Positions 21,716 to 42,438 of a DNA stretch of 64,000 nucleotides are shown piece by piece. Source of the stretch: Flavisolibacter sp. (lineage in GTDB: Bacteria; Bacteroidota; Bacteroidia; Chitinophagales; Chitinophagaceae). Under the pieces are notes generated by a model. The model was not told where the DNA came from, did not search any database, and saw only the letters and a list, made by a program, of their open reading frames with translations. Where the stretch lies: NCBI GenBank assembly GCA_028288675.1, contig JAQBNG010000146.1, positions 1-64,000 of the forward strand. The letters are read 5' to 3'. Numbering within the stretch: position 1 is the stretch's first letter; the number at the start of each line of letters is the position of its first letter. The position numbers and the translations under genes are program-made.

Positions 21716-21845
21716 GTTTGCGTGAGGGATAGTAGCGAAAATCCTTTTTGGTGCGTTGTCATGCTGAGCCTGTCGAAGCATTGTGCGTAGGCCAAAAAGA
21801 TTGCAGCAAATAGCCCGGCCCGAGGCTTTGCGAGGGACACGCCCA
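21716..21845 (+). repeat. Dispersed structured intergenic element, copy R1
   Basis: GTTTGCGTGAGGGATAGTAGCGAAAATCCTTTTTGG...CCAAAAAGATTGCAGCAAATAGCCCGGCCCGAGG...GGGACACGCCC; same boxes occur at 26471, 28205 and 42316. Confidence 0.85.
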
Positions 21846-26470: not shown

Positions 26471-26593
26471 TTGAGCGTGCCCGAGGCGGGCCGGGCTATC
26501 CGCTATTATCTTTTTTGCCTTGGCAGTTTCTTTTTTTCTATAGCTTGATACCGAAGGCAAAAAAGGATAACCGCTTCTATCCCTCACGCAAAC
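26471..26593 (-). repeat. Dispersed structured intergenic element, copy R3
   Basis: Reverse complement: GTTTGCGTGAGGGATAGAAGCGGTTATCCTTTTTTGCC...GGCAAAAAAGATAATAGCGGATAGCCCGGCCCGCCTCGGGCACGCTCAA. Confidence 0.85.
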
Positions 26594-26636
26594 GGCCAGT
26601 ACATCTCAAATACAGAACTACACTTCACTGCATAAA

Positions 26637-26660
26637 AAAAGCCCCGGATACGGAGCTTTG
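26637..26660 (-). terminator. Rho-independent terminator of the RRM protein gene
   Basis: CAAAGCTCCGTATCCGGGGCTTTTTTT on the minus strand. Confidence 0.8.
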
Positions 26661-26677
26661 AATTTTTTTGGAATAGC

Positions 26678-27019
26678 TTACCACTTTTTCTTGTTATAAC
26701 CACCGCCGCCACCGCCGGAGTTATTATCGCGGTAGCCACCGCCGCCGCCGCCGCCACCACTTCTGGCTGGCCTGTCTTCTTTAGGCTTGGCTTCCATTAC
26801 TTTGATGGTTCTGCCTTCTACTGAAGCGTCATTCAGTTCTTGAATGGCTTTTTGGGCAGCCGCATCATCCGGCATTTCCACAAACCCAAAGCCCCTGGAT
26901 CTTCCGGACTCCCTGTCATTAATAATTTTTGCTGACGATACTTCTCCATAAGGAGTAAAAAATTCTTTCAGGTCTTCATCCTGTACGTTGAAGCCTAAAT
27001 TGGAAACATAAATGTTCAT
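26678..27019 (-). CDS. RNA recognition motif (RRM) RNA-binding protein with Gly-rich tail
   Basis: 113 aa; MNIYVSNLGF, SRGFGFVEMPD, tail RSGGGGGGGGYRDNNSGGGGGGYNKKKW. Confidence 0.95.
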   Translation of the reverse strand: MNIYVSNLGFNVQDEDLKEFFTPYGEVSSAKIINDRESGRSRGFGFVEMPDDAAAQKAIQELNDASVEGRTIKVMEAKPKEDRPARSGGGGGGGGYRDNNSGGGGGGYNKKKW

Positions 27020-28195: not shown

Positions 28196-28204
28196 TGAAG
28201 TGGC

Positions 28205-28347
28205 AGGCGTGTCCATCGCAAAGCCCCGTTCCGCCTACATAGATTCATCTTTTCTTTTGCACCATACTTTGACAAATCTTCGCGAGCCCGGAGTGACAAG
28301 TCTGCCAACGCAGCAAAAGAGTTTAAGCTTCTATACCTAACGCAAAC
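28205..28347 (-). repeat. Dispersed structured intergenic element, diverged copy R4
   Basis: Reverse complement: GTTTGCGTTAGGTATAGAAGCTTAAACTCTTTTGCTGC...GTGCAAAAGAAAAGATGAATCTATGTAGGCGGAACGGGGCTTTGCGATGGACACGCC. Confidence 0.65.
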
Positions 28348-42315: not shown

Positions 42316-42438
42316 TTTTGCGTGAGGGATAGAAGTGAAAATCCTTTTTTTCCCTTTGCCTGATGCTTCGATAGGCTTACCATGACAAAGAGCAAAAAAG
42401 ATTGCAGCAGACAGCCCCGCCCCAAGGGACACGTCCAA
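42316..42438 (+). repeat. Dispersed structured intergenic element, copy R2
   Basis: TTTTGCGTGAGGGATAGAAGTGAAAATCCTTTTTTTCCC...GCAAAAAAGATTGCAGCAGACAGCCCCGCCCCAAGGGACACGTCC. Confidence 0.85.

Follow-up and report, generated by a model that had tools for sequence, protein, structure and literature searches.

Identity and Extent of the Elements

The locus considered here raises the question of what a set of dispersed, structured elements lying between genes represents, and whether the structure that they share is maintained in RNA or in DNA. An earlier note had picked out four such elements, R1 to R4, in the window (the whole stretch of 64,000 nucleotides of Flavisolibacter sp. DNA that was analysed), and had put them forward as a four-copy family and an undescribed or poorly described system. 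All four were found where they had been placed, with ends corrected to 21717–21845 (+) for R1, 42317–42437 (+) for R2, 26472–26592 (−) for R3 and 28204–28346 (−) for R4. The 5′ and 3′ boxes that they had been said to share proved to be real: with up to three mismatches allowed, the 5′ box TTTGCGTGAGGGATAGAAGC gave exactly four matches in the window, corresponding to R1, R2, R3 and R4, where none was expected and none of 100 shuffles reached four, and the box GGCTTTGCGAGGGACACGCC (P3/P1′) recovered R1 without mismatch and R4 with one, the expectation again being zero.

An Rfam cmscan bore out the suggestion, made at the outset as a guess, that the elements correspond to the Flavo-1 motif (RF01705). 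Relative to the Rfam gathering cut-off of 42 bits, R3 (54.6 bits) and R1 (47.2 bits) scored above, R2 fell just under (36.1 bits, E 5.5e-4) and R4 was not listed. Scores with our own covariance model were 81.8 bits for R1, 72.9 bits for R2 and 85.3 bits for R3, all three belonging to the training set of that model; R4, in which the 5′ box and the P3/P1′ box are recognisable and the arm P2 is mostly gone, gave 9.4 bits (E = 4.8), a score not separable from noise. Because both of its boxes match where none is expected, R4 is judged to be a true but decayed relative, R1, R2 and R3 being full copies.

Searching the genome with the Rfam profile returned 48 Flavo-1 matches, 43 of them at or above the cut-off, and the extended model returned about 50, including the 24 copies of its training set, one of these copies lying just beyond the end of the window at contig position 76088–76225. 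The description as a four-copy family therefore holds within the window and not for the genome. On these profile matches the family is Flavo-1 and hence not undescribed, although it has no known function and the form seen here has two stems beyond those of the Rfam model.

As a separate observation, a hairpin resembling an intrinsic terminator, complete with T run (26630–26665, −), lies between R3 and the gene for an RRM-type RNA-binding protein (26678–27019, −), and R3 may consequently be situated beyond the end of the transcript of that gene. The elements themselves were considered as intrinsic terminators and rejected as such, the order being wrong on both strands with a T run before the hairpin and an A run after it.

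Anatomy and Covariation

Alignment of the copies in this genome defined a unit, TTT-GCGTG-A-[P2]-GG-[P3]-CACGC-CCA, that is longer than the Rfam model. In R1, the outer stem P1 is formed by GCGTG at 21720–21724, where the shared sequence stops, pairing with CACGC at 21838–21842; the arm P2 (21726–21816), the part modelled by Rfam, is a long, conserved stem interrupted by G-A-rich internal loops, and its variable tip carries an insert around TCATGCTGAGCCTGTCGAAGCATTG (21758–21783); and the second hairpin P3, CCCGAGGCTTTGCGAGGG (21819–21836), is supported by covariation, pair counts and folding. Alignment to the Rfam covariance model and pair counts confirmed that the arm P2 and its conserved internal loops are the same in both forms, the difference being that the form found here adds P1 and P3. 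Neither of these stems is in the Rfam model, since at the position of P1 the flanks of that model are unpaired (uuuUAGCC...) and R3 can be aligned there only with a 10-nt insertion.

The earlier claim that the outer GCGTG/CACGC pairing persists while inner stems change in sequence was upheld. The outer stem (TT-GCGNN/NNCGC-C) changes jointly on its two sides, occurring as GCGTG/CACGC, GCGTA/TACGC, GCAAG/CTTGC and GCGTT/AACGC, and among 24 copies from this genome 10 of 27 pairs had changed on both sides, a figure equalled by none of 500 shuffles. Pairing was recorded in 95.6% of cells in these 24 copies, as against 40–49% in slid versions, although the structure was drawn from the same 24 sequences and the slid controls therefore flatter the pairing figure. 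A comparison independent of the structure drawing was provided by 41 elements of other genomes anchored by sequence alone, in which the two variable P1 pairs were Watson-Crick in 89% of cases compared with 37% after shuffling (the maximum of 2000 shuffles being 55%). The three lower pairs of P2 in other genomes were likewise paired in 93–96% of cases versus 46–51%. Covariation of this kind shows P1, P2 and P3 to close a three-way junction.

Folding of single sequences was not decisive: the energies were unremarkable for R1, R2 and R4 and low for R3, which on its own folds into the junction (RNA z −2.68; DNA z −2.90), and for one short copy, which folds unaided into the exact junction shape with both RNA and DNA parameters.

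Two copies (L015:1501–1583 and L062:1501–1603) have a different outer part, with GGCTGC preceding the arm and TTAGCC or GTAGCC following it, and may represent a third architecture; comparison of the two loci for conserved synteny indicated that they are not syntenic. An outer inverted repeat beyond P1 (TGTTATGTTAAG...CTTAACATAACA) was not accepted as belonging to the unit in general, too few copies having it: exact pairing of at least 9 nt was present in 3 of 35 copies, compared with 3.1% of mismatched flank pairs.

Unit Ends, Copying and Interchangeable Tips

Information content drops from about 1.5–2 bits to no more than 0.7 bits directly outside TTGCG...CGCC. L023 and L027, two copies in unrelated flanks, share 98.4% identity over 124 nt, which shows that the P1-bounded unit has recently been copied. 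All 46 copies examined were intergenic, with genes called by a simple ORF rule; together with the covariation, this gene context supports the original description of the elements as dispersed, structured, intergenic and subject to compensatory change. Their orientation relative to genes exhibited no preference (12 same strand, 11 opposite, 9 convergent and 9 divergent), and a consistent sense orientation upstream of one gene class, as for a cis-regulatory leader RNA, was likewise not seen among the 12 same-strand and 11 opposite-strand copies. A weak preference for the opposite strand was recorded in two other genomes.

Short non-coding units with inverted ends and lineage-specific bursts of copies invite comparison with MITEs. 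The Flavo-1 units differ from these in having an internal structure that is conserved and covarying, and in that neither a transposase nor a target-site duplication was identified: inspection of the copy flanks by eye revealed no clear target-site duplication, and all-against-all comparison of the ORFs near copies revealed no recurrent transposase, the only recurrences being a longer repeat in one metagenome-assembled genome (MAG) and orthologous neighbourhoods. Nor was a common gene seen when clusters of copies were inspected. At three loci of this genome (L001, L007 and L021, on contigs C23, C92 and C166 respectively), the 5′ flank of L007 is that of L021 and its 3′ flank that of L001, a mosaic attributable either to recombination between copies or to the assembly.

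The tip of P2, and less often that of P3, is interchangeable, several tip classes recurring in this genome and combining with different P3 classes. A palindromic repeat, TGCTTCGACAGGCTCAGCATGAC, occurs in the tips of many Flavo-1 arms in either orientation, the REP-like insert of R1 being an interchangeable palindrome that is similarly found both ways round in other copies, and repeats similar to TGCTTCGACAGGCTCAGCATGAC also stand alone beside some copies. The hairpin tips may thus be targets for insertion of this repeat.

Copy Number and Host Range

Among 18 congeners of the window organism, 15 had no copies and the other three had from one to three, high numbers being again recorded in more distant members (74 and 84 matches). 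A census of the class found Flavo-1 matches in 99 of 248 genomes, with counts that differ within genera and that are lower bounds, the best 18 candidates having been scored in each genome. Among the matches listed in an exact-pattern scan of GTDB were Spirochaetota, Leptospirales and one record from Thermodesulfovibrionia in addition to Bacteroidota. A model constructed from this genome only, with at most 150 candidates scored, gave at least 142 and at least 139 matches in two spirochaete MAGs, those listed being full-length, and the same model found 88 matches in a MAG of Leptospirales and 51 in the genome of Flavobacterium pectinovorum, subject to the possibility of contamination in any individual MAG. 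The complete genome of Treponema putidum contained eight matches, the two copies read there having a different outer part. Searches of plasmids and phages gave no match. The form described here is accordingly a variant of Flavo-1 with a structure absent from the Rfam model, in a range of hosts broader than that implied by the Rfam summary.

A longer repeat adjoins copies of Flavo-1 at roughly a dozen loci (e.g. L166, L170, L179 and L187) in one of the spirochaete MAGs (JAISXE01, G435) and in others.

Retention at Orthologous Sites

Evidence on the persistence of individual copies was obtained from a large Flavo-1-rich genus of the same class as the window organism, probably Flavobacterium because the flanks resemble named Flavobacterium loci. 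Comparison of two of its species (G210 and G384) placed a Flavo-1 match at the orthologous position for 12 of 17 sites, a thirteenth (L302/L303) having a recognisable but poor copy. The cores of orthologous copies were 92% and 89% identical, as compared with about 80–90% for the aligned DNA on either side, most of it coding, and 62% for the tips; this difference suggests that the Flavo-1 core is under selection. When one site was followed through 12 species, the element was kept by and recognisable in most of them (~68–83% identity), the tips differing strongly and mostly still being paired.

RNA or DNA

Flavo-1 was listed in 2010 by Weinberg et al. as a probable RNA that is not cis-regulatory (PMC2864571), and Rfam classes it as an sRNA. 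If it were a real RNA, whether an sRNA or an element embedded in mRNA that protects 3′ ends or binds protein, selection would act on the strand that Rfam models, with dispersal a secondary matter. The strong covariation, the conserved internal loops, which would suit tandem G-A pairs, and the conservation of cores at orthologous sites are all in keeping with such a role. Against it stand the absence of an orientation preference in this genome and the weak opposite-strand preference in two others, the patchy presence within genera, and a transcriptome of F. psychrophilum in which Flavo-1 matches lie on the sense strand, on the antisense strand and also where nothing is transcribed, with no function assignable (PMC9723704). 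The RNA explanation is, on balance, a distinctly less probable one, though it deserves to be taken seriously, and a further argument bearing on it comes from the mismatches within the stems.

Stems in RNA tolerate G-U and do not tolerate A-C, the two being equivalent in stems of DNA. Summed over apical, P3, P1 and lower P2 pairs, G-T exceeded A-C by a factor of only about 1.5 (approximately 47 to 31), whereas the acceptor stems of 14 tRNAs from the same loci, a small control, gave nine G-T and no A-C; the test is an indirect one, unselected decaying copies being symmetric also. Apical stems of other genomes leaned towards G-T (22 versus 10). The proposal of the earlier note that compensatory change reflects selection on an RNA is accordingly not established, and because of the unbiased orientation, the near-symmetry of G-T and A-C and the transcriptome data, a structure acting at the level of DNA is favoured over an sRNA at about even odds.

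Near-symmetry of this kind would also be expected of a selfish or neutral repeat without function, the perfect stems of which would arise by quasi-palindrome correction through template switching in replication. Such a process would account for tips that are swapped and yet always paired, and both the burst of copies in the lineage itself and decayed copies such as R4 would fit. It is nevertheless improbable, since the internal loops remain imperfect and hardly vary from one phylum to another, orthologous cores are conserved as much as, or more than, the DNA that flanks them, and most of the 12 species followed at a single site have a recognisable element.

Relationship to REP Elements and RAYT Transposases

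Among the closest analogues of Flavo-1 as a DNA element are the REP and BIME sequences associated with RAYT (PMC2817692, PMC6006769), which are likewise numerous, short, imperfect palindromes, intergenic and in both orientations, and are built from mosaic combinations of modules. The Flavo-1 elements differ in having no GT[AG]G or CGTC end tag, in forming a three-way junction rather than a single hairpin, and in being independent of a RAYT gene.

The last point bears on the possibility that these are classical REPs or REPINs moved by a RAYT (TnpA-REP, a Y1 transposase), for instance one of the Bacteroidetes subclass 2.6, whose genes have atypical structures on either side (PMC6006769). The size, copy number and intergenic hairpins, the association with REP-like palindromes, and the location of one of the five Y1 matches of the genome about 0.5 kb from a Flavo-1 copy would all be consistent with mobilisation of this type. 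That nearby RAYT, however, has another palindromic repeat on either side of it; the unit ends, TTGCG...CGCC, are without the GT[AG]G foot; and two genomes with at least 18 Flavo-1 matches each (G255 and G200) have no Y1 transposase, nor does G435 with its 142 or more matches, absence from a MAG being weaker evidence. A search for Y1_Tnp that covered 41 relatives as well as genomes rich in Flavo-1 revealed no required association, and dependence on RAYT was rejected as a candidate, the explanation by classical REPs being correspondingly hard to sustain.

A 148-aa RAYT gene of this genome (L156:827–1273, contig C153, −) was observed to have on both sides a multi-hairpin repeat, AAGCCTGAAGGGCTT..CCGGGTGCAACCCGG..AACCCTGAAAGGGTT, which may be the atypical REP that goes with Bacteroidetes RAYT subclass 2.6.

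The reading preferred here, to which a probability of roughly one half is given, is that Flavo-1 in its extended form acts as a REP/BIME-like DNA element whose junction is read by a protein. The structure, either single-stranded or extruded as a cruciform, would be bound by a putative trans-acting protein recognising the conserved junction and internal loops; such binding would have driven the spread of copies through some lineages, and copies would be kept between genes where it was useful or tolerated, RAYT transposases not being required. This DNA-element interpretation has to be set against the failure to find a mobilising protein, a target-site duplication or an empty site, the fact that conserved G-A-rich internal loops are typical of RNA too, and the unremarkable single-sequence folding of R1, R2 and R4. 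A more far-reaching version, in which Flavo-1 is not an sRNA and forms the core of mobile DNA junction elements that cross phyla, exchange their tips, employ a putative non-RAYT structure-specific enzyme and serve a chromosome-level role at fixed sites, is put forward only tentatively.

Implications for the Flavo-1 Family

Ever since it was described in 2010, Flavo-1 has been classed by Rfam among the sRNAs with no known function. A bounded and copied junction that is neutral with respect to orientation, carries swappable tips and occurs in more than one phylum suggests that Flavo-1 may instead be a DNA repeat, and the most useful message of the present analysis is that the sRNA label deserves testing. 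Testable handles are now provided by the unit ends, the junction and relatives that are without Flavo-1, and, if a protein does read the element, it could prove to be a new factor specific for DNA structure.
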